This document shows, one piece after another, positions 1 through 49,852 of a stretch of 64,000 bases of DNA. The translations under genes were made by a program, and so were the position numbers. The notes under the pieces were generated by a model that worked only from the letters and a program-made list of their open reading frames with translations, was not told the DNA's origin and did not search any database. Origin of the DNA: Pegea sp. RAD2-039 (lineage: Eukaryota > Chordata > Thaliacea > Salpida > Salpidae); NCBI GenBank assembly GCA_034620365.1, contig JAQGEQ010000372.1:1-64000 (forward strand), read 5' to 3'. Numbering within the stretch: position 1 is the stretch's first letter; every line of letters starts with the position of its first letter.

Positions 1-1874
1 ATATAAATTTAATTACTTTTATTTATACTTGACACATTTAGTTTGATTTTGTTCTTGTGTGAAACAAACTATAAAAAATAGAAAAATAAGTTTTTATTTT
101 TGTTACATGAAATTCTGTATATAATTGAAATAGAAAACTTATTCAAGCTTTGAATTGATTTTATTTTGTTTTCAAAATATTCTTCATCTGGTTGTTTATT
201 TATATTTAGTTACATGCTTGTATCGTTTAGTGTTCAAAATCAAATGATTTAAATTTTTCATATTATCTAAAACTAATTTTCTTTATCATTAATTAAACTT
301 TTTTTTTTATATTAAAGGAAACTAAAAAAAAGATTTTGAGGAAAGAAGACAGAAGTGGTTGAAAGACTTCCAGCTAAATGTTAGATGCTGTCAGACTAGG
401 AAATACATCTTTTCACAACAACTTCTCCTAACGTTCAAGGAGTAATTGACTCTAAGGATTTGATGAATTGATGACTGTGATTAGTCCAGATAATGGAAGA
501 ACAACTCCATAATCGGCAGATGAAGTGATTTCGTTTAGTTAACATTTTTGATGTTTTTCAAAATAGTTGTTGTCATGGAAAAATTTTTGTAAACTTCTTA
601 AAGTTTAAATTTTATGATTTAAACATTGACACAAATTTCTTTACTTTCTTTCAATATTTACTACAGAATGTTCTACTTCTTCTGTGACATTCTGTTCAAG
701 TTCCTAATTTCGATCTGAATGTCAATTTCTCTGTCAGTTTGGTCTACAGTAACATGTTGAGTCATGTAAGCACAACTACTTTCAAATCATATGATTTCAT
801 TGTAGCTTTAAAATATAAAAGCCTTAAGTTTTCTTTTGTAGCTTTATGGACATCAACATTATTTTCAAAGTTTTCAACAGACCAAAAACTTAGATATTTT
901 GTTGAAGACTATGTCATCTTCTATTAATTGTAATCTCTTCTGCTTATGAAAAAATTTTTCTTATTCAAATCTTGAAGAATTTATTTTTAATCATGATGTT
1001 GAAGAAAGATGTTCATTATCACGATTTAAAGATTCAGTTTCATCTTCCGACCTAACTTCAATCTCTGATTAATCCTTTTTACAGATGTAGTTCTGTTAAA
1101 TAATGTTGAAAAATTTAACTGCTGAAATAAATAAGCAAATTCAAAATACATTAATCATCTTTAATATCTATTAGATTGTCGATAACTCTGTAAATATATA
1201 ATTTGATAAAAATTGTTTATGCACAGAATATAGAAACTTCCTATACAAACTTATATTCATAAGCAGCATTTTTAGAGATATTTACACACATTTTTAAGCA
1301 TGAGACAGAGAGCAATATGCTCATAAGGATCTATTCTTCTAAATTTCGGCCAAACAACTTGATATAAAGGAATAACAATTTGCAAATTTTTTATTTTATA
1401 AATAATTTTTAAAATAATTTTTTCCACTGAAGACTTATCCATAATAGCTTGAATTAAATACCATAAGTGACCTTTAAAATACAATCTTTAACTGACAGTA
1501 GAGGTATTAACATAGAGAATTCATTTTTGTATCTAACTTAACTGCTTTGTAAAAGTTAGTTAAAAACTAAACATGATTATTTCTGTAAAATCCAAAAACA
1601 TAAATCGTTTTAGAAAACGGATGTCTTAGTTTCTGTAAGTATAATTTGAACTGCATTATAAAAAAGAATATTTTTGGCAACGTAACTGGTTCTTGTTTAC
1701 TCTGTAATCAATTCAAACTTGTATCGTGATTTTAAAAAAATCAAATCTGCTCAGGCAACATTTACGAGATTGGTATGCAGGAAACTTAATCATAAATGCG
1801 ATAGTTATACTTCGTCTGAGCTTCTTGAATTTGAATAATTATGAAATTCGAAAGATGGACAAGGATTTAATTCT

Positions 1875-1925
1875 TATTTGGTGAGAGGTTCTCTCTTCAG
1901 ACATCCTGTTTAACTTTTATTTTGA
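1875..1925 (+). mobile_element. Weak SINE 3'-domain remnant
   Basis: GAGGTTCTCTCTTCAGACATCCT resembles the 3' domain of the tRNA-derived SINE family (GAGGTGCTCTCTTTAGGCACCCT pattern), followed by a T/A-rich tail. The head is missing. Copies lie at about 17474-17520 and 53115-53165 (inverted). Confidence 0.4.
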
Positions 1926-2503
1926 TAAAGAAAAAATGACACTTTCTCCTTTTTGAAAAGTAAATATCAAAACAAAAAACTTAACTTTTCTTAAACTTTC
2001 TTTGTTAAGTACTTCTATTTTTAGGTCCGAAGATGATGCTAAGAACGAAAGTAAATCATTGTAAAACATTAATCGAGAAATAGAGACAAGAGTGCAAGGT
2101 TTTTAATTACTATGTAGGAATGTTCATAACTAAGTAAAATAATGAATGGAAAAGCATCAGAAGAAAGATATTTTATATTGATTTAGTCAAAGTTAATTGT
2201 AACTGCGTACAACTATGACAAGCACAGTAGAATATTTGATGAAGTAATAATATTGGATGCCAAATTCAATTTGTGCCACTGAAGCAGAGTCAGTAACAAA
2301 ATTAAGTTTCCATTCATTAAAAAGTAATCGTTTTTAAATAATTTTAAAAAATAAAGTTAAATAAAAATAGTTTTTACAATAATTTAAATGAAAACATTTA
2401 AATAATAGAGTTTGTATAATAAATAGCAGAAATCTTAAGTTAAAGCTGTACCGAACATAGGCAACATCCCTTTCATCAAGGTTCAAGCTTTCATTTGCTT
2501 TTA

Positions 2504-2728
2504 TTAAACTAAAGAAACATAAAGAACATTTCTATTAAACGTTTGTGATGACAAAGCATTATTTGAATAAGTTTTTCGTGGTTGTGAATACTGAACATTT
2601 AATGTAACACTGTACATTACGCATAAAAACTCGTATAGAAAGTTCATTTTTGAAGGACATTCGTTGTATAAACTGACACAAGTTTGAGTAAATATAAAGT
2701 TTAAAAATCTATGAAAATAATAGAACAA
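2504..2728 (-). other. Open frame conserved in three block copies, uncertain
   Basis: Reads TQTCVSLYNECPSKMNFLYE within about 74 open codons, with no ATG start. It is also open at 18103-18327 and 52312-52536. Most differences between copies change the amino acid, so there is no sign of selection. It is followed downstream by KANESLNLDERDAAYVRYSF and NEWKLNFVTDSASVAQIEFG in other frames. These may be exons of an unrecognised gene or relic. Confidence 0.2.
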
Positions 2729-3360
2729 TGTTAATTAATATTATAATTATTATACTATTTTTGTAGTTTTAGGTTAATTTATAATTTCTTTATAGTGGAA
2801 ATTGATTTTAGCCCATCTAAAAGATGTAAGCTAATTTAATGAATCAATTTTTTGGTTAAGGTGATTTAACCTTAGTTACTCCTAATCTCGTAACAAAACT
2901 GTTGATGATCTTAAAAAACAAATGTAATTTTTAAATTTAAAATCAATGCAAATTTCATTATGTTAGTTTATAAGTTATTAAATAGTTATATACAGAATTA
3001 TTGATAGAAACTTAAAGTTTGATAAAAATTTTTTTTATTCATAAACTCAGATAAATATTTCAAATTATTCCTGAAATTTTTAGTTTTGTATAGCTCTTTT
3101 ATTTTAGCACTTTATTGCAGTCTTAATAGGGCTAGTAGAAACAAAATTATTAACGTTTAGAAATTCAAACTTATTTTTTAGTACTTTTAAATTTCATGAA
3201 TTGTTTAACTGGCTTCTAATATATTTAGTTAGCTTTGATTTTACATTTGTTGTTTAGTAAAATGGTATTTTAATACTTTATGTTTTGATAGTAACATATA
3301 TTATTATTAGTCTTAATAAAAAATAAATAAGAGAACACTTTAATATATTTAACAAATAGT

Positions 3361-3393
3361 TTTTCCAGAATTTTAGTGATTAATTATTTCAAT
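3361..3393 (+). promoter_or_regulatory. Acceptor-like site and short leader before the ATG8-like gene
   Basis: A pyrimidine-rich TTTTTCCAG ends at 3368 and leaves a 25-nt leader to the ATG at 3394. No obvious upstream coding exon is seen. The site could be the 3' end of a 5' UTR intron or a trans-splice acceptor. The same site is present in copies b and c. Confidence 0.4.
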
Positions 3394-3986
3394 ATGGGCA
3401 AATCGTTTAAAAAAAGTTGGACCTTTAGTAAGTAAATTTAGGATCTTATTATTTTAATTTTAAACTTTTTGAACTCAGTTTAAAATTTCTTTATTTTATT
3501 TAGAGCAAAGGTGCTTAAAAGCTGAGAAACTTCGGTTGCAACATCCTCTCAAAGTACCTGTAAGTAAAAAACTATTATTTTATTCATTTATGCTATAAAA
3601 TTAACTTTCTATAGGTGATTATTGAAAGGGACTATAAGGAAGACCTTTTGTCAAATTTAATAGATAATAAGGTTCTTATTTTTGAAAATAGTACAGGACT
3701 AGACGTTATGTCGTCTATTAGGTCAGTACTATGAAAATTTAACCTTATAAAGAATTTTCTTAATAACAAACATTGACAAGTTATATGATGAGGTGAGACT
3801 TCATTTAACTGATCTTCTATTGATAGACGGGACTTACGAATAAGCAAAAATTTTGTAATTGGTTTAAAAGTCAACAGGAAGACTGTTATTAATTCGTCTC
3901 AGCTAATATCCGAAGTATATGAGACCTACAAGGACAAAGATGGTTTTCTTTACCTGACATATTATCTGGAAGATAATCAAAGTTAA
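3394..3986 (+). CDS. ATG8/LC3-like ubiquitin-fold protein, copy a (4 exons)
   Basis: Exons 3394-3427, 3504-3559, 3615-3721 and 3827-3986 join through GT-AG introns of 76, 55 and 105 nt to give 118 residues. This is close to LC3 size. Seen: QHPLKVPVIIER (residues 24-35) matches the LC3 stretch HPTKIPVIIER, and ISEVYETYKDKDGFLYLTYY (93-112) matches the conserved ISEVYE-KDEDGFLY segment. The residue types fit LC3 better than GABARAP. Known of the family: ATG8 proteins are conjugated to phosphatidylethanolamine through a C-terminal glycine and drive autophagosome formation and cargo capture. Odd: the protein ends in LEDNQS with no glycine after the last strand, so canonical lipidation looks impossible. 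An acceptor-like TTTTCCAG ends at 3368, giving a 25-nt leader. It could be a diverged functional paralogue or an early pseudogene; the open frame favours the former. Confidence 0.85.
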
Positions 3987-4127
3987 AACAATTTTTTTGA
4001 TATCTAAAGTAAAATTAGTTTGAAAATTTGATAATTTTGTTTTTAGCAACAGTTTAAATGTAAGAATTAATAAATATCTAACCTATTTGTTCTTGCATAT
4101 ATTTTAGTCTTATCTTTACTATGTATA

Positions 4128-4256
4128 ATCTTAAATAGGGTTCAGCCAGGCTCTATGGATCCTGGCTGTTTTGTTCTTTGTCTACTTCCTCTTTGTAGCT
4201 ATGGTTTGGTTTCCACTGGATCTTGAAGAAGTTCTCTAGAAGAACAAAGAGATAAA
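4128..4256 (+). other. Possible exon with a membrane helix, containing a perfect inverted repeat
   Basis: GC-richer islet about 150 nt after the ATG8-like stop. Positions 4143-4150 and 4161-4168 form an 8-bp inverted repeat (CAGCCAGG / CCTGGCTG) with a 10-nt loop. One frame reads ILAVLFFVYFLFVAMVW followed by PLDLEEVL and a stop, which looks like a transmembrane helix with a short acidic tail. The islet is preserved in the other copies (around 19730-19855 and 50785-50917). There is no start codon or partner exon that I can support. It could be an exon of an unrecognised membrane protein, a structured RNA, or a relic. Confidence 0.3.
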
Positions 4257-4771
4257 GACTCAGAAAAGGTACAATTGACATCGTGTACTCATTTTGCAAA
4301 ACCTTTAACAAAACTTGTTTTATTTTTATTCATTACACGACATTAGTTTGACAACAAACTTACTTTATTGTTTTATAGTTAAAATGAAGCAACCAACTTT
4401 CTGTGTATATTTCTATCTACAATTGTTGATTTAAGTACTTAAGGCTGATGACATCATTGTGGATTTCAAATTTTCGTTCACTTACTATCATCTCATCTAT
4501 GATTTTTCTAATTTTTTCTTGTAACCTAAAGTGCTGTTGGTATTTTTAATGTATATTATTTTTTTCTTTGAAAATAATTAACGTATAATATACAATTTTG
4601 ATTGATAACAAATGATGTATATTCTTTTACATATATTTTAGTTGGTTATTTACTGTTTGAATTAAATGTATTTTATTGTTCTTTGTTAGAGACTACTAAA
4701 ATGTAAAGTTTTGGATATTTTTCTTTCTATATTTCCTACTTAAATATTTATGATATGTCTTAATTGTTAGA

Positions 4772-4835
4772 ATGTGCATAACTAAGCGGTGCTCTCTTCA
4801 GGCACCCTTCATCGTGTTTACTGTAATAAACTATC
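4772..4835 (+). mobile_element. SINE 3'-domain remnant
   Basis: The sequence from GAATGTGC through GGTGCTCTCTTCAGGCACCC to TGTAATAAAC matches the 3' domain of the SINE at 12444-12630 and lacks the tRNA head. GGTGC and GCACC can pair as a small hairpin. The open frame overlapping it on the plus strand (4789-5028) is not a gene. Confidence 0.65.
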
Positions 4836-5090
4836 TTCAATCAAAAATTGTTTTAAAGATGAAAACGTTCGTGATATTTACTGTGAAAGTATAACATTTG
4901 TAAGCTATAAAAATCATTTTTTAGAGAGTATTTATTCACAAAAAGCTGAGTACTACCCTTCAAAGTTTTTTTTCTTAAGTTTCAAAGGTTGTATTGGTGT
5001 AGTAAACGGTAATATTGGCTTTTTTTAACTGAAAAAAAAAAAAAACATATCTGTTTATAAAGTGTTAAAATTTTTTTAGAAAAATGTGTA

Positions 5091-5110
5091 CACAACAACA
5101 TCTTGTTGTG
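5091..5110. repeat. Short perfect inverted repeat
   Basis: CACAACAA and TTGTTGTG flank a 4-nt loop. It is conserved at 20691-20710 and 49931-49950. It lies about 80 nt downstream of the minus-strand tRNA-like sequence and may belong to the same element. Confidence 0.6.
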
Positions 5111-5188
5111 ATTTTTTTTAAGCTCATTTGCGTTAGCATGTAACATTTTAGGAGAATTTTGCCACCTGGTAAGGGTTAATACTGATAT

Positions 5189-5260
5189 TGCTCTACCCGG
5201 GAATTGAACCCGGCCTGTTTGCTTAATAGGCAGCGCTGTTTACCATTCAGCTATAGAGAC
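5189..5260 (-). tRNA. tRNA-like sequence, probably a tRNA pseudogene, copy a
   Basis: Read on the minus strand it has an A box (TAGCTGAATGG), a D-stem GCTG/CAGC and a B box (GGTTCAATTCC) inside a perfect T-stem CCGGG/CCCGG, with tRNA-like length of about 72 nt. The acceptor stem pairs poorly and the anticodon arm does not give a clean 5-bp stem with U33, so I cannot assign an anticodon. It is best seen as a decayed tRNA gene or the head of a tRNA-derived element. It has no CCA-like or conserved 3' domain of the SINE family described elsewhere in this window. Confidence 0.5.
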
Positions 5261-7158
5261 ATTTGCAAATCGTACAAAAGTTGTATAAATAGTTTATTTT
5301 CTCTTCTTTTTTAAACATCATACTCTACTGAAAACTAACACTAAATAAAATATAAATTTCAAATTTAAAGAATATATTTAATTACATTCCAAATATACAT
5401 TCACAAAGTTTTAAAAAATTTTTAATTTTTTTAAATTAAAAAAGTAAAAATAATTTCTAGGTTAATCAAAATTTTATGAATAACTTTAATGAAACTTATT
5501 AATTTTATTTTAATCAAATTGTTTCATTTATATCTTTTCACCAAAGTAGTACAATTATATAAGTACCTATATAACAAGTAAAAATAAGTTTTTGTAATTT
5601 CACTTTAAGTGTTTGTATTAACATAAATCATTTTCTGGATATACTAAGATGTAATTAATAAATACAAACAAGTTCAATTCATTTATACTAGAAAATTTGC
5701 AACCAAGAAATTTTAGTAAAAAAGTACTTTTCAAAAATTTCCTTTTGAGACATATGAAGCTAGCATTATTTAAACGAACCAAATATTTTACTCATACATT
5801 CACTTATAAATTCGTTATTCTTATACCTTTTCACTTATTTAACTCTCTAATAGAAAACTTTTATAATTTAAAATGATTTAATTTAATCTGTAAGCAATTT
5901 TATTTTTAAAAAAGCCTTACGTTTTGAGATACAACATTATGAGTGGCTATTTTTTCTGAACATATAGGCTATAAGAATTTTATGACTTTTACAATTTTTC
6001 ATCTTTAAGTCATCAATCATGTCATACTAAATACCCTTTATCTTATTGACGTGTTGCACTTACTTTCTTATCTAACTACATTTCCCTGAGTTTTGTTTTG
6101 ATACTATGTGTGGATGAGCCAGACTCGGTCAAAGTAAGACTTTACTACTTTTACTGTTACTCGTGTTATTTTAAGCTGTATTCAGATCTTTCTTTAACTT
6201 GCAATTTTTTGTTTCTTTTATTTGTTAACAGTTTTTTTTCCTGAAATATTACAGAAAATGCTTTTTGGAGTTAAGTAAATTGGTTCAAAAGACGTTTTCA
6301 AGGTATTCGACTTAATCTTTCTTGTGAACCTGAAAATTATAAGGAACCTTAAAGCTAAATATCATCCTATTACAATTATTAAAGTTTAATAAAATTGATC
6401 CTCAAACAATAATAACTCTATTACTGAATAAAGTCTATGAGACGAAATTTCAATCTAATAAAAGAGTTGCTACTAATAACGAAGTCTTAACATCATTATG
6501 AAAAAATAGATAAGTTCGAAATCTTTGAAACAGACTTAGCTAATAGAAGCTAGCTGGCTGGCATCAATACCATTGTAATTTTAAAAGACTTTTATTTCGA
6601 CATAATCAAAACTCTTTGATAAAAAAATTTGATTAAATTTCTGTATTAAAGAACGTACCAACAAATCAGTTGATGTCTTTAGTATGCATTTCATGACTAA
6701 TAGTAGAAGATTTAAAAAGATTTCAAAACAAAGTAAAACTTTTTAATGTAAATTATTATAAATTCGGTAAATTAAGATAAGTAAATTAGGATCTATTATT
6801 AAGAGCAGATGTTTCATTCTAAAAATTCATTCTATTTATAGTGATATGAAAGTAGTATCACACATAATTCAAAGTTTTGGTGAATAATTGTCATAACGAA
6901 AAAAAAGAGAGTTGAATTAACCCAACAAGAGTTCTGATGTTGATCTAAGGATTAGAAAGAATAGTTGCGTGGAGGCTCGGTGTTCTACCAGAATAGTTAA
7001 GGGTGTTCCTCCAGAGCACTGCAGATGCAAATAATTAATGTCGACTGTAATTGTAACACAATTACAGAACTGTGGTCAAGTCAGTTACAATACAATTTAT
7101 TGATTAAGGAGAATTTTTTACAGTTCAACTGTATTACAGAAGATTATATTACCACATA

Positions 7159-7242
7159 TCAATCGAAGGCAGTCCTACACTCAGAATCTGCATAAGATGG
7201 TTTCCAATCATCTTGTATAGAATCATCAATGATTTTTTCCAT
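7159..7242 (-). other. Coding-looking 27-codon reading frame, unrecognised
   Basis: Preceded by an acceptor-like GCTGTGTAG directly before the ATG. It reads MEKIIDDSIQDDWKPSYADS and ends in RTAFD plus stop. It is preserved at 47798-47881 in the inverted copy. The amino-acid texture is unlike the AT-rich background, but there is no family match and no partner exon. Confidence 0.2.
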
Positions 7243-7694
7243 CTACACAGCATGAAAATAAATCATTTATTTATTTGCATCTGAATGATTTCATAGAACA
7301 CCGTCGCTGATAATTAGAAATATTGTTAAATAACATTTATGATAATTTATTAGATATCAAATGTTAAAACTAAACATCATTTTTTTTCATAAATTACTTT
7401 GACTTAATCTTCATACAGTATTCTAGAAAATTTTCTTTTACTTTTTTTTTTCCATAACACTTCTGTTAAGTAGACTTACCTGTAAATAACATTTATTTAA
7501 TTTTTACTATAAACATAAACAAGGTTGTCTGAATAATTAATTTAGAAATGTAAAAAGGAAGAGATTTAACACGTCGCATTTCAGTAGTCTCATTTCAGTC
7601 AACTTTAAAATAATGCTGTTGATTTTATAATTTTGTACTAGAGTTGCCTGGTAGAGAACCAAACGCAATAGCAAATTTAAGATTTATCATTTCA

Positions 7695-7990
7695 CAACGA
7701 GTATTAGTCTTATAATGGGCTGCTAGCTCAATGAAAAACAAGAGTGTTGAGTCAGGGAAGATCTCTGTTACACAAAGGTGTGCTGGACATCTGAATTTAC
7801 GTGATGCTCTATCAAATGACTGTTAATATGGTTGTGAATGATATCAGTTCTTCAGTTCTGCAGATAAGCAAAGTATGTGAAACGGATCTGTATTTAAGTG
7901 CAGTGTTTCTGGGACCCTTTCTATGAACAGCAGTAATGATAGATCTTTTCCAAATTTGTGTAACTCTTACTTGCCTCAGAGTGATGTTAA
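7695..7990 (-). mobile_element. LINE RT fragment in block R2
   Basis: On the minus strand: QIWKRSITAVHRKGPRNTAL then SVSHTLLICRTEELI, matching the same RT region as the fragment at 22290-22450 with extra decay. It belongs to the same or a sister LINE family. Confidence 0.65.
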
Positions 7991-8379
7991 AATGTATCCA
8001 AATAAGTAGTGATAAACAAGAATATGTGTGATAAATTATTAAAATTTTTCAAAATCATTTTCTACTAACTGGAAGGAAAGTCAACAATAATCAGACACTT
8101 GAGATTAAAACATAAAAATTTTAAAGTTAAATATAGTTTAAAATTAAATGTGATCAATAAATTAAAAGGATAAATCAGATTGGCTAATAGTAGTATGACT
8201 ATTGATTAAAAAAGCTTATTAATCAACTTAAGAACTATAGTTGTGTCCTTAAATGTCTTACAAGCTATACACATGGACAGAATTTAAATAATATTTAGAT
8301 ATAAACTAATGAAAATATCAATATCTTTGCTAAGTTAAAGAAAATGAAACTAAGAACTCACTTCTTTTTTGAAGAAAAT

Positions 8380-8511
8380 TTATTTCAGATTGATGGAAGC
8401 AGTTCTATGATAGTTTATACCTTCAGTAGTTTCAACTTTATATAAGGTATTACCAGCAGCTTCACAACTGTATACAGAAAAAGATACATTTGTTAATTCA
8501 CTTTCTAAATC
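8380..8511 (-). pseudogene. Recurring terminal exon family, member 1
   Basis: Minus-strand frame SELTNVSFSVYSCEAAGNTL, then YKVETTEGINYH and a stop. It is homologous to the exons at 12018-12172, 26418-26571, 46530-46660 and 58704-58858. The protein is not recognised. The shared pattern is NVSF-V-SCE--GN-L--VET-EGI. Confidence 0.5.
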
Positions 8512-9262
8512 TTTACAAAATTAACAATAGTTTAGAGATATCTATTTCATGAAGCTCTACTTCAGAAAAAAATCGATATCAGAACACTCAAGTAGGTCTT
8601 TTTAAAGATATTTTCAGAACAACTAATAAATAATGCTATGTAGTAATACAGTTAGAGAATATATTTTAAAAATTTAATATTTTATTACAAAAGTTAATTG
8701 TTCACTAAGTGTTATTAAAGCTGTTATACAAGGAAAATATTAAAGACAAAAAAATAGATTAGTTTTTGAAAGTGAAAAGAGATTAACGATCTTGTTATAC
8801 TACACAAGAAATGAAAGAAATTGTTTAAAGTTTCAAGAATTGCTTTTACTAAGTATCAAACAAAAATATTTTTAAAACTTAACATGCATTTGAAGATATT
8901 AAGAAATTAAAATGAAGTGTTGTCAACACCTAATATTTTAAGTTCTAAATGTAAATATCTCTTAGATGAAATCTTAAAGATATAATAAAAACTTGAAAAA
9001 TTTTAGAACCTAGGCCATCAGTCAATTTAATATTATATAAAATTCTTTATAAACTTTTATTTAGAGAATTTTTTTTATCTTTTTGAAATCAGTTATTAGA
9101 AAATAGAATCTATAAAAATGTTATTGGGAGAATGAAACAAAAATAGTTTTAATAAAAGTTTCAATAATAAAATCAAATAGCTAATGTAAATAAATGACCA
9201 TTATCCAATTAGTTTAATTAATTTCATAAATAGCTATCATATATTATATTATAATAATATTC

Positions 9263-12172: not shown

Positions 12173-12443
12173 CTTTAAAAAAATAAACAATAGTCTAGAG
12201 ATATATATTTCATGGAGCTCTACTGCAGAAAAAATTGTTAATTCTATACAACATGTAATAATAGTAATCAAACATTAGTTGTAAGACAATATACTTTGTA
12301 ATAAAGTTTATATAAGTCTAAGATTAATAAGATGAATAAGATTAGTATAAAGTAATATTCTTACAATGAATAAACCTAAAAAGTGGTATTAAAAAATAGT
12401 TTGTCGAATTTGGAATAATTGAAATATATATAGAATTAAAATT

Positions 12444-12630
12444 CGTCCTGCTTAGTGGCGAAGCGGTTACTACACCTACCTTCTAGCTAGGAAGTACCGG
12501 GTTCGATCCCAGGTGGAGACATATAAAACTCCTGAAAAAACCATAAAAAACTCGTGAGAATGTGTGTTAGAGAGATGTGCTCTCTTTAGGCACCCTCCTT
12601 CGCATTTATATATATAAATAAATAAATAAA
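12444..12630 (+). mobile_element. tRNA-derived SINE, full length
   Basis: The tRNA-like head has box A TGGCGAAGCGG (12456-12466) and box B GGTTCGATCCC (12500-12510), as in an RNA polymerase III promoter. A linker follows, then the 3' domain GAGAATGTGTGTTAG...GTGCTCTCTTTAGGCACCC, and a TATATAAATAAATAAATAAA tail. The diverged paralogue at about 27597 lacks it and gives an empty site. SINEs depend on a partner LINE for movement; whether the LINE fragments in this window are that partner is unknown. Confidence 0.85.
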
Positions 12631-13416
12631 AAATTAGAAACGCCATTTTAGTGCAAGTTTAATTATTCAGTAATAATCTAAATAATTCTCAAGTACATTT
12701 CACGTTGACAGATGTTAAATATTATTTTGTTTTAAGTTATTTTTGTTTTTATAAAATATATAATCATTTTAAACCATTTTGCTACAAATTCAAATTTAAA
12801 TATTATCTATTTCTATAGGAATTATTAAGATTTATGAAAAGTAACTCCATATAATTTGAGATTCTAATAGTTTATTTGGAAGTAAATTTATTTGTTAAAC
12901 TACAATTGAATTTGGATGACCCAATTCTTTTATATGTTTAGTTACAAAATAATATTTTTTAGGTGTACATAGATTGTTGGTTTAATTAAACAAGGGTTTT
13001 GTTTAAAATTCATTTATTAATTACAAATTTAAATGAATAATTAGATCTTCCTCTACGTGTTGTTACTACTGAAAGTTTGTGTTGTGCTTGTGTTTGTCAA
13101 TGAGAAATGTGTTACATGGTCCTGCTGTTTATTATATTATTTTATATTATTATTATTACATAGCATTCCCTGTCATTTCTTTATAGATTTTGTAAAGAAC
13201 AAATATTGATTGTTGATCGTTTAGGTCTCCATAAAAGCCACTTATTAAAACTCAACTTAATAATAGAGAGTGACAGACTTAAAAAGCATAATTAGTTGTT
13301 AAATAAATTTCAATTTACTCATTTTGAATATTTTTAATTTTATAAATAAACTTTTTTGTTAGTTTTTTTGAAACTCTAGCCTTTTGTTGGTTCATTGTGG
13401 TTGTATAAATCTTCAT

Positions 13417-13438
13417 CAAGTCAACTTTCGTTGACTTG
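13417..13438. repeat. Short perfect inverted repeat
   Basis: CAAGTCAAC and GTTGACTTG around a TTTC loop, 9-bp stem. The inverted copy near 57210-57232 has one mismatch. Confidence 0.6.
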
Positions 13439-16400
13439 TAATCTCAGTAAGAATCATAGTGTTTGCCCCAATAGAAATTCTTTCGGTTTGGTTTAATAAT
13501 CATTTTAAATTTGTTAATATGTGAAGAATTATAATCATTATTTATGAGATCATAAAGTAATCAATTCAAAAATATAAGTATCATTCAATTCTTCTATAGT
13601 AAAAAGAAACCAGATTTTTTGAAGAAAAGTTTTGTTGAAAATCTCAATGGTGATTTATTAAAGTACTATTTTTTATAAAAATCTTTATTAGCCCAACTGA
13701 AATATAAACTTTGTTCTTTCTATTGAATTTCTGTTGGGAGTTCAATTTTTTTTTCAGTGCACTTATTACATTTTATTTGTCCCGTCTTTTATTAATCATA
13801 AACTTTAACAACTTTTAATCACAGGTGATGACAATCTACTAATAGAAACCTCCAGCAGTTAGTTGGAAATATTGGAGTTGCTACCGAGAGAATGACCTCT
13901 TGGTTAATATTAGAAATAGTGTGCTACAAGGTCAATGTCAAAAGATGATTAAGATTCAGAGATCTGTGAGAAAAAGATAATGTCCAAAAGGAGGTTAAGT
14001 TGATCACAAAGTGCTCCAAGACTTTGTTCTCTTCCAAGGTATTCTGAGACCTCTGGCTGATCTGAATTTATCATCACAAGAATTTCTTCATTTAAATTTT
14101 TGCAGAAGTTTGCAGTTGCTGAAATATTTCAAAGGATCAATTTTATTGAAAATCTACTTCCAAATTAATTCCCATCAACAATATAATAAACAAGTGATTG
14201 AATATGATGACGTCAGCAGATGTTTGCATCATTGAATGGGACAGATTGGAGATCTTAATATTTTCCTTTAGCTGTTACATCATCATCAGTTATCACCTGT
14301 GATTTCATCACAAGTTTTTGATTTAATCTTTTAATTTGTCATCATTTTACTGATTCAGGTTTGGATCCCATTTGTAAATTATTTTTTAAATTTTGTGTCT
14401 TGACTTATTTACTAAAAGATTTATATATAATTTTATATAATAATGAAAAATTAATTTCTTATAGATTTATAAACTTTTCTTATATTTTCACAAATATATT
14501 TATTAAAATTTGAATGATTATAAACTTTTTCTGATTTAACTATTATTTTAATCTTCAAATGTTTAAAATTTTAAATTATTTTATAATTTTTTATAAATTT
14601 TTTTATTGTTTATTTAATGTTTCATGAATTTTTATTAACAACTTTTGTATAGGAATAATTTTTTTTTCAAATAATCCAAAGAATTTCAATTAAGATTTTA
14701 TATTTTATAAGTGTTAATTATAAGAATAATAAATTTTAATAAATCATCAGATTCAATTTAGGATTAGATATTTGTTTACAAAATTCCTGTAGCTCTAGCT
14801 AGCGGTTGAAAAATAAAAAGTTTAAACCATCTAGTAATAAGATTTCTATTTTCAATTTATAAAATTTGTTAAATAATTTTTAAGTTTTATATTTTGATAA
14901 TCATTTCTAATCCTTGAAATTTGTATGATCTACGTTTTTTAAGTAAATTTCAATTTAGAAATTTGTAAATTCATTTCAAATCTTTAAATATCAAATAAAA
15001 CTCAATTTATGATTTAATTGAATTTAAAGAAAACTTTCAATTAACTGAATTTTTGTTAGGATGGAGATTAAAGAAGTGTTCTATGATGACATCATCTGGC
15101 GGCATCATTGATAAAGATGCTTATTTTAAGTGTTGAAGATCAGATGAACTAACTCAGTTTTTTAGGAGTTAATGAACATGGAAGATTTGGTATGATTGAA
15201 TTTTTAGGTAATTTTTTTTAATTTCAAAAAATTTTCTAAATGATTATCTTCCAAGTTTATCATATTTTAAATAAATCAATTTTTATATAAAATTACCTTT
15301 ATATTTCAAAACAGCATTAAATCAAAACTTAGCTATAATAAACAACTAACTTATAAGTATAAAATGTTTATGAGAATAAGTTATTTATTTTGAAATATAA
15401 TATGAATTTATAGACAAAATATTTTCATGAATTATATAAATTATTCAATTTGACAATTTTATGATATTTATAAAGTATATAATACTTTCTTTTAGATCCT
15501 TATATCTTTCAATTTGAATTGTTTTCTGATAGGATAATATTTGGTGGTTTTTATCTTGTTTTTTGAAACAATATTTACAAATTTATTAAATGAAGCAAAA
15601 ATATAAATTTAATTACTTTTATTTATACTTGACACATTTAATTTGATTTTGTTCTTTTGTGAAACAAACTATAAAAAATAGAAAAATAAGTTTTTATTTT
15701 TGTTTCATGAAATTCTGTATATAATTGAAATAGAAAACTTATTCAAGCTTTGCATTAATTTTATTTTGTTTTCAAATTATTCTTCATCTGGTTGTTTATT
15801 TATATTTAGTTACATGCTTGTATCGTTTAGTGTTCAAAATCAAATGATTTAAATTTTTCATATTATCTAAAACTAATTTTCTTTATCATTAATTTAAAAT
15901 TTTTTTTTATATTACAGGAAACTAAAAAAAAGATTTTGAGGAAAGAAGACAGAAGTGGTTGAAAGACTTCCAGCTAAATGACAGATGCTGTCAGACTAGG
16001 AAATACATCTTTTCACAACAACTTCTCCTAACGTTCAAGGAGTAATTGACTCTAAGGATTTGATGAATTGATGACTGTGATTAGTACAGATAATGGAAGA
16101 ACAACTCCATAATCGGCAGATGAAGTGATTTCGTTTAGTTAACATTTTTGATGTTTTTCAAAATAGTTGTTGTCATGGAAAAATTTTTGTAAGCTTCTTA
16201 AAGTTTAAATTTTATGATTTAAACATTGACACAAATTTCTTTACTTTCTTTCAATATTTACTACAGAATGTTCTACTTCTTCTGTGACATTCTGTTCAAG
16301 TTCCTAATTTCGATCTGAATGTCAATTTATCTGTCAGTTTGGTCTACAGTAACATGTTGAGTCATTTAAGCACAACTACTTTCAAATCATATGATTTCAA

Positions 16401-18992
16401 TGTAGCTTTAAAATATAAAAGCGTTAAGTTTTCTTTTGTAGCTTTATGGACATCAACATTATTTTCAAAGTTTTCAACAGACCAAAAACTTAGATAATTT
16501 GTTGAAGACTGTTTCATCTTCTATTAATTGTAATCTCTTCTGCTTATGAAAACATTTTTCTTATTCAAATCTTGAAGAATTTTTTTTTAATCATGAGGTT
16601 GAAGAAAGATGTTCATTATCACGATTTAAAGATTCAGTTTCATCTTCCGACCTGACTTCAATCTCTGATTAATCCTTTTTACAGATGTAGTTCTGTTAAA
16701 TAATGTTGAAAAATTTAACTGCTGAAATAAATAAGCAAATTCAAAATACATTAATCATCTTTAATATCTATTAGATTGTCGATAACTCAGTAAATATATA
16801 ATTTGATAAAAATTGTTTATGCACAGAATATAAAAACTTCCTATACAAGTTTATATTCATAAGCAGCGTTTTTAGAGATACTTACACACATTTTTAAGCA
16901 TGAGACAGAAAGTAATAAGCTCATAAGGATCTATTCTTCTAAATTTCGGCCAAACAACTTGATATAAAGGAATAACAATTTGCAAATTTTTTATTTTATA
17001 AATAATTTTTAAAATAATTTTTTCCGATGAAGATTTATCCATAATAGCTTGAATTAATTACCATAAGTGACCTTTAAAATACAATCTTTAACTGACAGTA
17101 GAGGTATTAAAATAGAGAATTCATTTTTGTATCTAACTTAACTGCTTTGTAAAAGTTATTTAAAAACTAAACATGATTATTTCTGTAACATCCAAAAACA
17201 TAAATCGTTTTAGAAAACGGATGTCTTAGTTTCTGTAAGTATAATTTGAACTGCATTATAAAAAAGAATATTTTTGGCAACGTAACTGGTTCTTGTTTAC
17301 TCTGTAATCAATTCAAACTTGTATCGTGATTTAAAAAAAATCAAATCTGCTCAGGCAACATTTACGAGATTGGTATGCAGGAAACTTAATCATAAATGCG
17401 ATAGTTATACTTCGTCTGAGCTTCTTGAATTTGAATAATTATGAAATTCGAAAGATGGACAAGGATTTAATTATTTTTTGGTGAGAGGTTCTCTCTTCAG
17501 ACATCCTGTTTAACTTTTATTTTGATAAAGAAAAAATGACACTTTCTCCTTTTTGAAAAGTAAATATCAAAACAAAAAACTTAACTTTTCTTAAACTTTC
17601 TTTGTTAAGTACTTCTATTTTAGGTCCGAAGATGATGCTAAGAACGAAAGTAAATCATTCTAAAACATTAATCGAGAAATAGAGACAAGAGTGCAAGGTT
17701 TTTTATTACTATGTAGGAATGTTCATGACTAAGTAAAATAATGAACCGAAAAGCATCAGAAGAAAGATATTTTATATTGATTTAGTCAAAGTTAACTGTA
17801 ACTGCGTACAACTATGACAAGCACAGTAGAATGTTTGATGAAGTAATAATATTGGATGCCAAATTCAATTTGTGCCACTGAAGCAGAGTCAGTAACAAAA
17901 TTAAGTTTCCATTCATTAAATAGTAATCGTTTTGAAATATTTTTCAAAAATAAATTTAAATAAAAATAGTTTTTACAATAATTTAAATGAAAACATTTAA
18001 ATAATAGAGTTTGTATAATAAGTAGCAGAAATCTTAAGCTAAAGCTGTACCGAACATAGGCAGCATCCCTTTCATCAAGGTTCAAGCTTTCATTTGCTTT
18101 TATTAAACTAAAGAAACATAAAGAACATTTCTATTAAACATTTGTGATGACAAAGCATTATTTGTATAAGTTTTTCGTGCTTGTGAATACTGAACATTTA
18201 ATGTAACACTGTACATTACGCATAAAAACTCGTATAGAAAGTTTATTTTTGAAGGACATTCTTTGTATAAACTGACACAAGTTTGAGTAAATATAAAGTT
18301 TAAAAAACTATGAAAATAATAGAACAATGTTAATTAATATTATAATTATTATACTATTTTTGTAGTTTTAGGTTAATTTATAATTTCTTTATAGTGGAAA
18401 TTGATTTTAGCCCATCTAAAAGATATAAGCTAATTTAATGAATCAATTTTTTGGTTAAGGTGATTTAACCTTAGTTACTCCTAATCTCGTAACAAAACTG
18501 TTTATGATCTTAAAAAACAAATGTAATTTTCAAATTTAAAATCAATGCAAATTTCGTTATGTTAGTTTATAAGTTATTAAATAGTTATATACAGAATTAT
18601 TGATAGAAACTTAAAGTTTGATAAAATTTTTTATTATGCATAATTTCAGATAAATATTTCAAATTGTTCCTGAAATTTTTAGTTTTTTATAGCTCTTTTA
18701 TTCTAGCACTTTATTGCAGTCTTAATAGGGCTAGTAGAAACAAAATTATTAACGTTTAGAAATTCAAACTTATTTTTTAGTACTTTTAAATTTCATGAAT
18801 TGTTTAACTGGCTTCTAATATATTTAGTTAGCTTTGATTTTACATTTTTTGTTTAGTAAAATGGCATTTTAATACTTTATGTTTTGATAGTAACATATAT
18901 TATTATTAGTCTTCATAAAAAATAAATAAGAGAACACTTTAATATATTTAACAAATAGTTTTTCCAGAATTTTAGTGATTAATTATTTCAAT

Positions 18993-19585
18993 ATGGGCAA
19001 ATCGTTTAAAAAAAGTTGGACCTTTAGTAAGTAAATTTAGGATCTTATTATTTTAATTTTAAACTTTTTGAACTCAGTTTAAAATTTCTTTATTTTATTT
19101 AGAGCAAAGGTGCTTAAAGGCTGAGAAACTTCGGTTGCAACATCCTCTCAAAGTACCTGTAAGTAAAAAACTATTATTTTATTCATTTATGCTATAAAAT
19201 TAACTTTCTATAGGTGATTATTGAAAGGGACTATAAGGAAGACCTTTTGTCAAATTTAATAGATAATAAGGTTCTTATTTTTGGAAATAGTACAGGACTA
19301 GACGTTATGTCGTCTATTAGGTCAGTACTATGAAAATTTAACCTTATAAAGAATTTTCTTAATAATAAACATTAACAAGTTATATGATGAGGTGAGACTT
19401 CATTTAACTGATCTTCTATTGATAGACGGGACTTACGAATAAGCAAAAATTTTGTAATTGGCTTAAAAGTCAACAGGAAGACTGTTATTAATTCGTCTCA
19501 ACTAATATCCGAAGTATATGAGACCTACAAGGACAAAGATGGTTTTCTTTACCTGACATATTATCTGGAAGATAATCAAAGTTAA
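18993..19585 (+). CDS. ATG8/LC3-like ubiquitin-fold protein, copy b (4 exons)
   Basis: Exons 18993-19026, 19103-19158, 19214-19320 and 19426-19585 have the same splice sites as copy a and also give 118 residues. The frame is intact, and the main protein difference from copy a is Glu54 to Gly. It keeps the LC3-like core and also lacks the C-terminal lipidation glycine, so the loss predates the duplication. Copy a sits 15.6 kb upstream in the same orientation. An open, correctly spliced frame in two copies suggests that function is or was recently retained, but near identity of the blocks means recent duplication could explain it equally well. Confidence 0.83.
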
Positions 19586-20367
19586 AACAATTTTTTTGAT
19601 ATCTAAAGTAAAATTAGTTTGAAAATTTGATAATTTTGTTTTTAGCAACAGTTTAAATGTAAGAATTAATAAATATCTAACCTATTTGTTCTTGCATATA
19701 TTTTAGTCTTATCTTTACTATGTATAATCTTAAATAGGGTTCAGCCAGGCTCTATGGATCCTGGCTGTTTTGTTCTTTGTCTACTTCCTCTTTGTAGCTA
19801 TGGTTTGGTTTCCACTGGATCTTGAAGAAGTTCTCTAGAAGAACAAAGAGATAAAGACTCAGAAAAGGTACAATTGACATCGTGTACTCATTTTGCAAAA
19901 CCTTTAACAAAACTTGTTTTATTTTTATTCATTACACGACATTAGTTTGACAACAAACTTACTTTATTGTTTTATAGTTAAAATGAAGCAACCAACTTTC
20001 TGTGTATATTTCTATCTACAATTGTTGATTTAAGTACTTAAGGCTGATGACATCATTGTGGATTTCAAATTTTCGTTCACTTACTATCATCTCATCTATG
20101 ATTTTTCTAATTTTTTCTTGTAATCTAAAGTGCTGTTGGTATTTTTACTGTATATTATTTTTTTCTTTGAAAATAATTAAGGTATAATATACAATTTTGA
20201 TTGATAACAAATGATGTATATTCTTTTACATATATTTTAGTTGGTTATTTACTGTTTGAATTAAATGTATTTTATTGTTTTTTGTTAGAGACTACTAAAA
20301 TGTAAAGTTTTGGATATTTTTCTTTCTATATTTCCTACTTAAATATTTATAATATGTCTTAATTGTA

Positions 20368-20431
20368 AGAATGTGCGTTACTAAGCAGTGCTCTCTTCAG
20401 GCACCCTTCATCGTGTTTACTGTAATAAACT
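20368..20431 (+). mobile_element. SINE 3'-domain remnant, block R1 copy b
   Basis: Same remnant as at 4772-4835, carried by the duplicated block, with the GGTGC/GCACC-type core slightly changed (CAGTGCTCTCTTCAGGCACC). Confidence 0.65.
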
Positions 20432-20789
20432 ATCTTCAATCAAAAATTGTTTTAAAGATGAAAAAGTTCTTGATATTTACTGTGAAAGTATAACATTTGT
20501 AAGCTATAAAAATCATTTTGTAATGAGTATTTATTCACAAAAAGCTGAGTACTACCCTTCAAAGTTTTTTTCTTAAGTTTCAAAGGTTGTATTGGTGTAG
20601 TAAACGGTAATATTGACTTTTTTAACTGAAAAATATTAACAAAAACATATCTGTTTATAAAGTGTTAAACATTTTTTATAAAAATGTGTACACAACAACA
20701 TCTTGTTGTGATTTTTTTTTAAGCTCATTTGCGTTAGCATGTAACAATTTAGGAGTATTTTGCCACCTGGTAAGGGTTAATACTGATAT

Positions 20790-20861
20790 TGCTCTACCCG
20801 GGAATTGAACCCGGCCTGTTTGCTTAATAGGCAGCGCTGTTTACCATTCAGCTATAGAGAC
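20790..20861 (-). tRNA. tRNA-like sequence, copy b
   Basis: Identical in its box A, box B and T-stem to the sequence at 5189-5260. It is part of duplicated block R1 and has the same weak acceptor and anticodon stems. Confidence 0.5.
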
Positions 20862-21686
20862 ATTTGCAAATCGTACAAAAGTTGTATAAATAGTTTATTT
20901 TCTCTTCTTTTTTAAACATCATACTCTACTGAAAACTAACACCAAACAAAATATAAATTTCAAATTTAAAGAATACATTTAATTACATTCCAAATATACA
21001 TTCACAAAGTTTTACAAAATTTTTAATTTTTTTTAATTAAAAAAGTAGAAATAATTTCTAGGTTATTCAAAATTTTATTAATAACTTTAATGAAATTTAT
21101 CAATTTTATTTTAATCAAAATATTTCATTTATATCTTTTCACCAAAATAGTACAATTATATAAGTACCTATATAACAAGTAAAAATAAGTTTTTGTAATT
21201 TCACTTTTTAGTGTTTGTATTAACATAAATCATTTTCTGGATATACTAAGATGTAATTAATAAATACCCACCAAGTTCGATTCATTTATACCAGAAAATT
21301 TGCAACCAAGAAATTTTAGTAAAAAAGTACTTTTCAAAAATTTCCTTTTGAGACATATAAAGCTAGCATTATTTAAACGAACCAAATATTTTACTCATAC
21401 ATTCACTTATGAATTCCTTATTCTTATACCTTTTCACTTATTCTAACTCTCTACTAAAAAACTTTTATAATTTAAAATGATTTAATTTAATCTGTAAGCA
21501 ATTTTATTATTAAAAAAGCCTTACGTTTTGAGATACAACATTATGAGTGACTATTTTTTCTGAACATATAGGCTATAAGAATTTTATGACTTTTACAATT
21601 TTTCATCTTTAAGTCATCAATCATGTCATACTAAATACCCTTTATCTTATTGACGTGTTGCACTTACTTTCTTAAAAACTTATTTT

Positions 21687-27769: not shown

Positions 27770-28019
27770 AAAAGTTTTATTTGCTTACAATCGCTTAGCC
27801 TAAAAAAAGAGTTTATTTTTTCTCTTGGTTTACCCAAACACAAAAATATTATTTTAACAAAATCTTTATACTACAATAAGTTAAATAGCATAAATTCTGT
27901 TACTTTTTTATAAAGAATACTTTACTTATTTGTTCTTCTATTTTCAGACTTTAAGAGCCGTACAAAGTTATTATAATTTTTTGACTGTCTCTTTTTTGTT
28001 TGAGTTTCAAGCTTTAGAT
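27770..28019 (+). promoter_or_regulatory. 5' flank, acceptor and leader of zinc-finger gene 1
   Basis: The acceptor TTCTATTTTCAG ends at 27947 and leaves a 72-nt leader to the ATG. The flank from about 27770 is homologous to 39040-39295 upstream of zinc-finger gene 3, so promoter or intron sequence was duplicated along with the gene. Confidence 0.5.
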
Positions 28020-29252
28020 ATGGCAGAACCTGAAGATGAAACCGCTAATCATGAAATGGTGAATAATCAACGGAATTTTTCCTCAAATGCTGTTAATCAT
28101 TCTAATCAACCTCCAAAAACTGATGCTACAACTCATCAACCTGTGTCATTTGAGGATAATAATAGTATAATAGATATACTTAGATACCAACAAGCTTTAG
28201 AAAGCCTAAAAAATGGGTATCATTCAGTAGCTGCGACCAGCTTTGAAAATCCATTTGGTTTACTAAGTTACTCTTCTGCTTACCCAGCAACAAATAGTAG
28301 TTATGCAGCTTCTTATGCTGGCCTCCAATATCCAGCTTATACAAGTTTTCAAACAAGTAACCCCAATCAACTCTCGCCTCATAATCATTTGTACGGTCAA
28401 GAGAACATTTTGGGGTCTTATATTGATCAATCGTTTCAGCAAACTAAAAACAAGTTGGAACACATGAGAGAAGATTCAAGACTGGTTAGCCAAGTTCAAG
28501 ATGCTAAACTTAATCAACTTCACAATCAAGTTCTGAATAATCAACAAAATACTTCTACACCTTTTGTAGAACAACCTCAACTGAACCACCCTTTTAAAGC
28601 TATTCAAGATCAATATTCCAACTTGCAATCAGTAGCTGCTACACCTGGCAGTAATATCACATCTACACCGAATCATCATCAATCTGAGATTAATCATAGC
28701 AACCAGATGTCTTCGACAACTTCAGCAAGCTGCTCAACACCTCAGCAGGGTCATGGGCAAATTGAATTGTCTGGAATTCCTAATAATCTAGCTTTTAAGC
28801 ATTTCCAAGCAAGCCGTTACCGACACCATTTTCGTCCATATCCAATTTATAGTCCAAGAAAAGAGTTTCTTAAAAACTTAAGTCGTGATCAATTAGAAAG
28901 CATGGTTGAGGAATTGCATGATCAAAACCAGTTCCTAGCTGCTACTTCAAATCATGGCTTTCAACTTCATCAATACCTAATGACGGAAACTTTCGATAAG
29001 ATGCAGGATTCTGAGCAGTTTCTTGATTTTAGAAGGTACATAGGACCTCCAAGACAAGATGGTAAGGTTGAATGTGTCCCTTGTAAGAAGCTGTTCTCCT
29101 GTAAAGCCTCTGCCTTGGTTCACATTAAATCAATCCATATGGGATTTGTCTACAGCTGTCCAGTATGTGGCGAGACATTCAACAGGAAGCCCACGAGAGA
29201 TCGACATCTCAATAATCCAAATATTCATCCTTGCAACCTTCCAACAAACTAA
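28020..29252 (+). CDS. Asn/Gln/Ser-rich protein with two C-terminal C2H2 zinc fingers (gene 1)
   Basis: Single coding exon, 410 residues from the ATG of MAEPEDE; upstream in-frame sequence crosses the splice acceptor and is not coding. Residues 1-270 are low complexity, rich in N, Q, S, H, T and P. A conserved charged segment near 275-325 contains YPIYSPRKEFLKNLSRDQLE. Finger 1 has C352, C355, H368 and H373 (C-X2-C-X12-H-X4-H). Finger 2 has C380, C383, H396 and H403 (C-X2-C-X12-H-X6-H). Two C2H2 fingers with a Q/N-rich arm suggest a nuclear nucleic-acid-binding regulator, though the targets are unknown. Paralogues lie at 31.75, 34.6 and 39.3 kb. AATAAA at 29385 may be its poly(A) signal. I do not recognise an orthologue in other animals. 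Confidence 0.9.
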   Translation: MAEPEDETANHEMVNNQRNFSSNAVNHSNQPPKTDATTHQPVSFEDNNSIIDILRYQQALESLKNGYHSVAATSFENPFGLLSYSSAYPATNSSYAASYAGLQYPAYTSFQTSNPNQLSPHNHLYGQENILGSYIDQSFQQTKNKLEHMREDSRLVSQVQDAKLNQLHNQVLNNQQNTSTPFVEQPQLNHPFKAIQDQYSNLQSVAATPGSNITSTPNHHQSEINHSNQMSSTTSASCSTPQQGHGQIELSGIPNNLAFKHFQASRYRHHFRPYPIYSPRKEFLKNLSRDQLESMVEELHDQNQFLAATSNHGFQLHQYLMTETFDKMQDSEQFLDFRRYIGPPRQDGKVECVPCKKLFSCKASALVHIKSIHMGFVYSCPVCGETFNRKPTRDRHLNNPNIHPCNLPTN

Positions 29253-39039: not shown

Positions 39040-39295
39040 ATGTTAAAATGTTTTATTTGCTTACAAACGCATAGCATAAGCAAGGAGCTTATTATTGTTT
39101 TTAAAAGATTACTCAAAAACAACAAAATTATTTAAACAAACTTTTTTTACTACAAGTTAAATAGAATAAAATCTGTTAATTTGTTTTTAAAGACTGCTTT
39201 ACGTATTTTATATTTAATTTTCAGACTTAACAGCCTTTCAAACTTATCTTAAGGTTTTGACTGTCTCTTTTTTGTTTAAGTTTCAATCTTTAGAT
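39040..39295 (+). promoter_or_regulatory. 5' flank, acceptor and leader of zinc-finger gene 3
   Basis: The acceptor TTTAATTTTCAG ends at 39224, with a 71-nt leader to the ATG, closely matching the leader of gene 1 (GACTGTCTCTTTTTTGTTT is shared). Upstream similarity to 27770-27947 indicates that a common 5' segment was duplicated. Confidence 0.5.
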
Positions 39296-40540
39296 ATGGC
39301 AGAACTTGAAGATAAAAGCATTAATCATGAAATGGTGGAGTATCAACGGAATCTTTCCTCAAATGCTGCTAATCATTCTAATCAACCTCCAAAAACTGAT
39401 GCTACAACTCATCAACCTGTGTCATTCGAGAATGATACTAGTATAAGAGATACACTTAGATACCAACAAGTTTTAAAAAGCCTAAATAATGGGTATCATT
39501 CATTAGCTGCGACCAGCTTTAAAAATCCATTTGGTCTGCTAAGTTACTCTTCTGCTTACCCATTAACAAATAGTTATACAGCTATTCAACCTTCTTATGC
39601 TGGCTTCCACTATCCAGCTTATACAAGTTTCCTAACCAGTAACCTCAATCAAGTCTCGCCTCAAAATCATTTGTACAGTCAAGAGAACATTTTGGGGTCT
39701 TATAGAAGTCAATGGTTTCACAAAACTCAAAACATGTTTGAACTCATGAGAGAAGATTCAACACAGGTTAGCCAAGTTGAAGATGGCAGACTCAAGCATC
39801 TTCACAATCAAGTTCTGAATAATCAACGAAATATTTCTACACCTGTTGTAGAACAACCTCAGCAGAACCGCCCTTATCAATCTCTTCAAGATCAATATTC
39901 CAACTTGCAATCAGTAACTGCTAAACCTGGTACTAATATCACATCTACACCGAATCACCATCAATCTGAGAGTAATCATAGCAATCAGATATCTTTGAAA
40001 ACTTCAGCAAGCAGCTCAAGACCTCAGCAGAGTCATGGGCAAATTAAATTTTCTAAAAGTCTGGGTTGTAATAATCCAGTTGATGCTCATTTCAAAGCAA
40101 GCAATTACCCTCAACATTTTCATCCATATCCAATATATAGTCCAAGAAAAGAGCTTCTTAGAAACTTAAGTCGTGATCAATTAGAAAGCATGGTTGAGGA
40201 ATTGCATGATCGAAACCAGTTCCTAGCAGCTACTTCAAATCATGAATTTCAACTTCATCAATACCTAATGCGTGGAGCTTTCGATAAGATGCAAGTTTCT
40301 AAGCAACCTCCTGATTTAAGAAACTACATTGGACCTCCAAGACAAGATGGTAAAGTTGAATGTGTCCCTTGTAAGAAGCTGTTCTCTTGTAGAAAAACTG
40401 CCTTGGTTCACATCAAATCAATCCATATGAGATTTGTTTACAGCTGTCCAGTATGTGGCGAGACATTTAACAGGAAGTTTACAAGAGATCGACATCTCAA
40501 TAATTCAAATATTCATCCTCGTCACCCTCCAATGAATTAA
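39296..40540 (+). CDS. Asn/Gln/Ser-rich protein with two C-terminal C2H2 zinc fingers (gene 3)
   Basis: 414 residues in one coding exon, starting MAELEDKSINHEM. Same layout as gene 1: N/Q/S/H-rich arm, YPIYSPRKELLRNLSRDQLE helix segment, then finger 1 (C356, C359, H372, H377) and finger 2 (C384, C387, H400, H407). The arm differs from gene 1 at many positions with small indels (an extra YTAIQ-like insertion near residue 95), while the fingers are nearly unchanged. This suggests constraint on the fingers. The 3' flank (about 220 nt) is also homologous to gene 1. Likely a nucleic-acid-binding regulator; specificity unknown. Confidence 0.9.
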   Translation: MAELEDKSINHEMVEYQRNLSSNAANHSNQPPKTDATTHQPVSFENDTSIRDTLRYQQVLKSLNNGYHSLAATSFKNPFGLLSYSSAYPLTNSYTAIQPSYAGFHYPAYTSFLTSNLNQVSPQNHLYSQENILGSYRSQWFHKTQNMFELMREDSTQVSQVEDGRLKHLHNQVLNNQRNISTPVVEQPQQNRPYQSLQDQYSNLQSVTAKPGTNITSTPNHHQSESNHSNQISLKTSASSSRPQQSHGQIKFSKSLGCNNPVDAHFKASNYPQHFHPYPIYSPRKELLRNLSRDQLESMVEELHDRNQFLAATSNHEFQLHQYLMRGAFDKMQVSKQPPDLRNYIGPPRQDGKVECVPCKKLFSCRKTALVHIKSIHMRFVYSCPVCGETFNRKFTRDRHLNNSNIHPRHPPMN

Positions 40541-43713: not shown

Positions 43714-43750
43714 TCTTAAACAACTTTTATAAATCAAAATCTAAAAATAG
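43714..43750 (-). promoter_or_regulatory. Acceptor-like site and leader before the kinase
   Basis: CTATTTTTAG on the minus strand ends at 43741, followed by 27 nt to the ATG in AGAATGG. Confidence 0.4.
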
Positions 43751-45778: not shown

Positions 45779-46529
45779 AATATTATTATAATATAATATA
45801 TGATAGCTATTTATGAAATTAATTAAACTAATTGGATAATGGTCATTTATTTACATTAGCTATTTGATTTTATTATTGAAACTTTTATTAAAACTATTTT
45901 TGTTTCATTCTCCCAATAACATTTTTATAGATTCTATTTTCTAATAACTGATTTCAAAAAGATAAAAAAAACTCTCTAAATAAAAGTTTATAAAGAATTT
46001 TATATAATATTAAATTGACTGATGGCCTAGGTTCTAAAATTTTTCAAGTTTTTATTATATCTTTAAGATTTCATCTAAGAGATATTTACATTTAGAACTT
46101 AAAATATTAGGTGTTGACAACACTTCATTTTAATTTCTTAATATCTTCAAATGCATGATAAGTTTTAAAAATATTTTTGTTTGATACTTAGTAAAAGCAA
46201 TTCTTGAAACTTTAAACAATTTCTTTCATTTCTTGTGTAGTATAACAAGATCGTTAATCTCTTTTCACTTTCAAAAACTAATCTATTTTTTTGTCTTTAA
46301 TATTTTCCTTGTATAACAGCTTTAATAACACTTAGTGAACAATTAACTTTTGTAATAAAATATTAAATTTTTAAAATATATTCTCTAACTGTATTACTAC
46401 ATAGCATTATTTATTAGTTGTTCTGAAAATATCTTTAAAAAGACCTACTTGAGTGTTCTGATATCGATTTTTTTCTGAAGTAGAGCTTCATGAAATAGAT
46501 ATCTCTAAACTATTGTTAATTTTGTAAAG

Positions 46530-46660
46530 ATTCAGAAAGTGAATTAACAAATGTATCTTTTTCTGTATACAGTTGTGAAGCTGCTGGTAATACCTTATAT
46601 AAAGTTGAAACTACTGAAGGTATAAACTATCATAGAACTGCTTCCATCAATCTGAAATAA
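46530..46660 (+). pseudogene. Recurring terminal exon family, member 4
   Basis: Plus-strand counterpart of 8380-8511 in the inverted block, 43 codons open to the stop (ESELTNVSFSVYSCEAAGN). An AAAG replaces the expected CAG acceptor. Confidence 0.5.
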
Positions 46661-49780: not shown

Positions 49781-49852
49781 GTCTCTATAGCTGAATGGTA
49801 AACAGCGCTGCCTATTAAGCAAACAGGCCGGGTTCAATTCCCGGGTAGAGCA
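49781..49852 (+). tRNA. tRNA-like sequence, copy c
   Basis: Plus-strand copy in the inverted block, from GTCTCTATAG at 49781 to the T-stem and GAGCA end. It has the same internal promoter boxes and the same imperfect stems as the other two copies. Confidence 0.5.

Follow-up and report, generated by a model that had tools for sequence, protein, structure and literature searches.

A multicopy, diverged LC3 paralog lacking its conjugation glycine in a salp genome

A gene that carries the landmarks of LC3 and ends without the glycine used for lipid attachment raises the question of whether its product may still have a duty or whether the gene is on its way to being lost. In ATG8 proteins, the terminal glycine is needed for charging by ATG7 and ATG3 and for attachment to phosphatidylethanolamine (PE). 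Passages of a review describe this chemistry in terms of a thioester with ATG7 and ATG3 and a bond to PE (PMC7615515). What ATG8 proteins do without lipidation is difficult to tell apart from their part in autophagy, since one protein is responsible for both. A paralog in which the glycine is gone for good and the frame is kept would provide a natural separation of the two duties; should the gene simply be decaying, it would illustrate the way in which a spare LC3 disappears. In this study, we have analyzed such a gene in the window, that is, the whole stretch of 64,000 nucleotides from Pegea sp. RAD2-039, which belongs to a contig of 159,497 bases (C65).

The gene (copy A) lies on the plus strand at 3394–3986. 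In our spliced model it comprises four exons of 34, 56, 107, and 160 nt (3394–3427, 3504–3559, 3615–3721, and 3827–3986, the last including the stop codon), separated by GT-AG introns of 76, 55, and 105 nt in phases 1, 0, and 2. Exon 1 encodes MGKSFKKSWTF and the first base of the codon for K12, while exon 4 ends in LEDNQS, with serine in the column of the terminal glycine, and overlaps a match to the Pfam ATG8 family (PF02991) at 3819–3971. The 118-residue product scores 63.5 bits against PF02991 over residues 13–114 (cut-off 27), which makes it an ATG8-domain protein, and its best match among solved structures is human LC3B (E = 1.4e-20). The four-exon LC3/ATG8-like gene of 118 residues ending in LEDNQS, as described in the original prediction, is thus borne out. 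A hexamer resembling a polyadenylation signal (AATAAA or ATTAAA) is present at 4069–4074 (+), about 83 nt past the stop, and a motif scan found one at the matching place in all four copies of the gene described below; it is a motif only and no proof of use. As all three introns are present, a retrogene origin was rejected.

An alignment with human LC3B and with LC3a, LC3b, and LC3c, the further LC3 genes that this genome contains, supports the loss of the conjugation glycine. Ser118 falls in the column of Gly120 and Gln117 in that of Phe119, and the serine is found in each of the three intact copies. The three other LC3 genes all keep FG, with the stop directly after the glycine in LC3a and LC3c and an FGLK end in LC3b, so that a glycine-bearing LC3, which was to be looked for elsewhere in the genome, does exist. 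Among the remaining ATG8-type genes, one of GATE-16 type on C125 ends in FGN and a related gene on C1 in FGSD. FG is therefore kept in five of the five other ATG8-type genes whose ends were read, a count that leaves out two GABARAP-like loci, on C262 and C30 (the latter with a stop within the match). Genome matches to ATG4 (C249 and C3), ATG7 (C1), and the ATG3/ATG10 family (C46) make conjugation of these other ATG8 proteins likely, and the idea of a genome without conjugation machinery was discarded on the same grounds. Judged by its sequence, the window gene is LC3 by descent and not a conjugatable ATG8.

Its descent can be placed more closely. The introns of the three FG-keeping LC3 genes lie at matching places and in the same phases, and in a tree of eight rows the window gene is the sister of LC3b, a gene at 1769 kb of contig C6, with support of 99/99 (97/98 under a second model). 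The same tree separates the LC3 rows from the GATE-16-type rows at 98/97, grouping the window gene with LC3 and not with GABARAP/GATE-16. The two sisters are very unequal, with branch lengths of 1.39 for the window gene and 0.07 for LC3b, and their proteins are 42.7% identical over 117 columns. Phe55, Val63, and Lys82 (human numbering) are common to both and not found in LC3a, and the departure from ordinary LC3 therefore seems to predate the loss of the glycine. In other respects LC3b is unlike its relative: it keeps Phe119-Gly120 and was found as one copy in the genome search. Two diverged, FG-keeping LC3 paralogs, at 1769 and 1962 kb of C6, share their contig with the ordinary LC3. With a branch of 1.85, the longest of all rows, a very diverged GATE-16-like open frame at C1:3207243–3207551 still retains ENTFG.

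A whole-genome DNA search with a 1201-base query returned four full-length matches, all of them on C65, and one further match of 40 bases elsewhere. Copy B (18993–19585, +) is intact and has the exon structure of copy A, with Gly54 in place of Glu; copy C (51056–51647, −) is put out of frame by the loss of one base in exon 3, which may be an assembly error; copy D, outside the window at contig positions 74580–75172 (−), is intact. The original prediction of two intact copies holds for A and B and is now extended by a frameshifted third copy in the window and an intact fourth beyond it. With frame and splice sites preserved in A, B, and D, whose proteins differ only by E or G at residue 54, copy C is the only one with a disabled frame. 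Self-comparison places the copies in large repeats. The arm with copy A (1–9262, +) is 99.4% identical to an inverted arm with copy C (45778–55039), the highest identity among the inverted arms, over 9.3 kb, and the arm with copy B (12248–21674, +) is 97.9% identical to the inverted stretch 48970–58394. The two inverted arms overlap, forming a block at 45778–58394 (−). Self-repeats that are 1 kb or longer and 90% identical or more make up 82% of the window; for the contig the share is 76%. Each of the three LC3-bearing units of the window also holds a tRNA-Asn-like gene with anticodon att, at 5189–5259 (−), 20790–20860 (−), and 49782–49852 (+).

What such a protein might still do depends in part on its binding surface. 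As in human LC3B, the ATG8 ubiquitin-like domain takes up almost the entire protein. Among 13 positions that we take to line the LIR groove (19, 23, 32, 34, 51–55, 63, 66, 67, and 108), with residue roles likewise assumed, six are identical to human LC3B (Pro32, Ile34, Lys51, Leu53, Ile67, and Phe108), three are similar (23, 54, and 63), and four are changed in kind (19, 52, 55, and 66). The groove and charge residues that differ are Asp19 (Lys in the window protein), Lys49 (Asp), Phe52 (Val), Pro55 (Phe), Ile66 (Ser), and Arg70 (Asp), because of which LIR binding may be lost. Besides Phe119-Gly120, the human protein differs by Arg10, Arg11, Lys49, and Arg70, all four gone from the window protein, and by Phe80 and Leu82, which are replaced as well. 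A soluble decoy or cargo-binding ATG8, as had been suggested for this gene, is compatible with the partial retention of LIR-docking residues.

The gene is real, and it is an LC3 duplicate that has diverged, exists in several copies, and lacks the conjugation glycine. Its model, the loss of the glycine, its descent, its copies, the FG-bearing paralogs, and the matches to conjugation enzymes are shown by the analysis. The explanation that we favor, with a probability of roughly 0.53, is that of a fast-evolving LC3 duplicate that has given up lipid conjugation and that, if expressed, would be a soluble protein with altered partners. On this proposal, a DNA-level duplicate related to the FG-bearing LC3b would have kept its introns and multiplied, within repeats of both inverted and direct orientation, on a small contig rich in repeats, with Phe119, Gly120, and several contact residues lost on its own branch. 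From the known chemistry of ATG8 proteins, the product would be neither charged by ATG7 and ATG3 nor attached to PE. With the ubiquitin-like core retained and the LIR groove preserved in part, what is left would be a soluble protein resembling LC3-I, with LIR-type or altered partners and no membrane anchor, which would modulate or compete with the conjugatable LC3s or act outside autophagy. That the protein is expressed, folded, unlipidated, and functional is what we infer from these features.

The main rival, which we regard as possible and clearly the less probable of the two, is that of a relaxed duplicate in decay, which would have lost the glycine because conjugation was no longer under selection; the intact copies would then be pseudogenes of recent origin within a repeat block undergoing duplication. 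Possible decay had been considered from the outset, and the codon comparisons then asked for bear on it in both directions. Using our own codon-model script, in which all pairwise fits except that to LC3b were saturated, the pairwise omega between the window gene and LC3b is 0.49 (2dlnL of 5.5 against omega = 1). In a four-gene tree the branch of the window gene has an omega of 0.495 versus 0.029 on the other branches, and a fit with this branch fixed at 1 differs by only about 0.7 log units (lnL −1513.86 vs −1514.56), so that the value is not distinguishable from 1; several branches are saturated. This relaxation, together with the frameshift in one of the four copies, agrees with decay. Against neutral decay over the whole history stands the open frame itself, as under neutral substitution a frame of 118 codons would stay free of stops with a probability of 0.0015 given 0.47 changes per site, which is about the observed divergence from LC3b, taking all divergence as neutral and leaving indels uncounted. 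Differences from LC3b are also reduced at second codon positions (54/28/49 by position, of 118 each; p = 0.001), with the LC3b branch contributing to them. Where LC3a and human LC3B agree (86 sites), the window protein keeps 39 residues and LC3b 45; a site test (30/45 vs 21/73, p 1e-4) is biased, since LC3b may itself have changed at other sites. Both the open frame and the codon-position pattern speak of the past, and we conclude from these comparisons that the window gene was probably under constraint then. For recent constraint there is a hint: of the five coding differences among A, B, and D, four are synonymous, the fifth being E/G at residue 54, and with an expected synonymous share of 0.22–0.29 at least four of five has a probability of 0.010–0.026 for kappa of 1–4, in a sample of five differences only. 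Across a 5.4-kb stretch of the four copies, variable columns number 5 of 356 in exons, 2 of 236 in introns, and 170 of 4845 in flanks (exons vs the rest, 5/356 vs 172/5081, p = 0.043). As the introns show just as little variation, we do not take the low exon variation as proof of selection; it may reflect gene conversion or chance, and that the introns share it can be read in favor of decay. The synonymous excess and the survival of the frame over a long divergence nevertheless argue for a maintained protein.

Other explanations carry less weight. An annotation artefact, in which a glycine end is concealed by alternative splicing at the 3′ end or by misassembly, would gain from the fact that the gene model derives from DNA alone and that the DNA alignment with LC3b is gapped beyond LTYY, a gap because of which a tail change by substitution alone cannot be claimed. 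Nevertheless, exon 4 matches through its last residue in the four copies, and the stop of the window gene shares its column with the end of LC3a. A scan of copy A from 3951 to 5300 in three frames (about 1.3 kb downstream), restricted to FG-type ends, found no FG separated from a stop by eight residues or fewer. The further 3′ glycine exon named in the original prediction was rejected for this stretch on that basis, and we consider an artefact very improbable. The fast-evolving duplicate that we favor has a special case, in which it would belong to an ampliconic region, perhaps one that is sex-linked or biased toward the germ line, and would serve reproduction independently of lipidation. The extensive repeats with their near-identical inverted arms, further multicopy genes on the same contig, and the fly gene Atg8b, described in passages of the literature as lipidation-independent in male fertility (PMC7615515), would be in keeping with it. 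Amplification by itself, however, implies no sex linkage, and we hold this version to be improbable, a sex-linked or germline region being a possible setting judged by the repeat structure. Somewhat less doubtful, and still unlikely, is a dedicated non-conjugatable animal LC3, fixed and amplified beside its conjugatable paralogs, whose work, perhaps in the germ line, would be that of a natural soluble antagonist or of an LC3 independent of lipidation.

Known systems offer partial parallels. Like the window gene, Drosophila Atg8b is a duplicate ATG8, and its role in male fertility is independent of lipidation according to the passages available (PMC7615515); unlike the window gene, which keeps its introns and is known from its letters alone, it is a probable intronless retrogene whose role was shown experimentally. 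The same review, in the parts consulted, gives yeast Atg8 as a further precedent for unlipidated roles and calls LC3 metazoan-specific (PMC7615515). The presence of LC3 alongside a GATE-16-type gene accordingly points to an animal genome; a search of the assembly for COX1 gave no match. The ATG12 of apicomplexans is likewise a ubiquitin-like autophagy protein that has lost its conjugation glycine, and excerpts of three papers indicate that it possibly interacts with ATG5 non-covalently (PMC10104450, PMC3416769, PMC2408969). It differs in being ATG12 rather than ATG8, in belonging to protists, and in not being a duplicate alongside conjugatable paralogs. Among the passages retrieved from one open full-text library, none described a natural animal LC3 without the glycine; those found dealt with lipidation-independent roles, an exposed glycine, a glycine-less transgene, or ATG12.

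The remainder of the window is also rich in multicopy genes, and a database search found, as expected, no match to phage records. A single-ORF protein kinase lies at 42469–43737 (−), with 99% identical copies at C65:158044, on C106, and on C260, and at least 99 matches in the genome. These three close copies have a TAG within the matched stretch, and the copy at C65:158068–159312 nevertheless reads without a stop for 414 aa, counted from the first ATG. The idea that this neighbor is a TBK1-like kinase acting on LC3 was dropped: among solved structures it matches DCLK1, CaMK-type, and Aurora kinases best, and the best 60 of 2382 matches do not include TBK1. Two further multicopy proteins, encoded at 27930–29252 (+) and 39257–40540 (+), carry a C-terminal tail resembling a zinc finger (matches below the Pfam cut-offs), with 28 genome matches listed for proteins of this kind, the strong ones on C65, C106, C148, C79, and C260.
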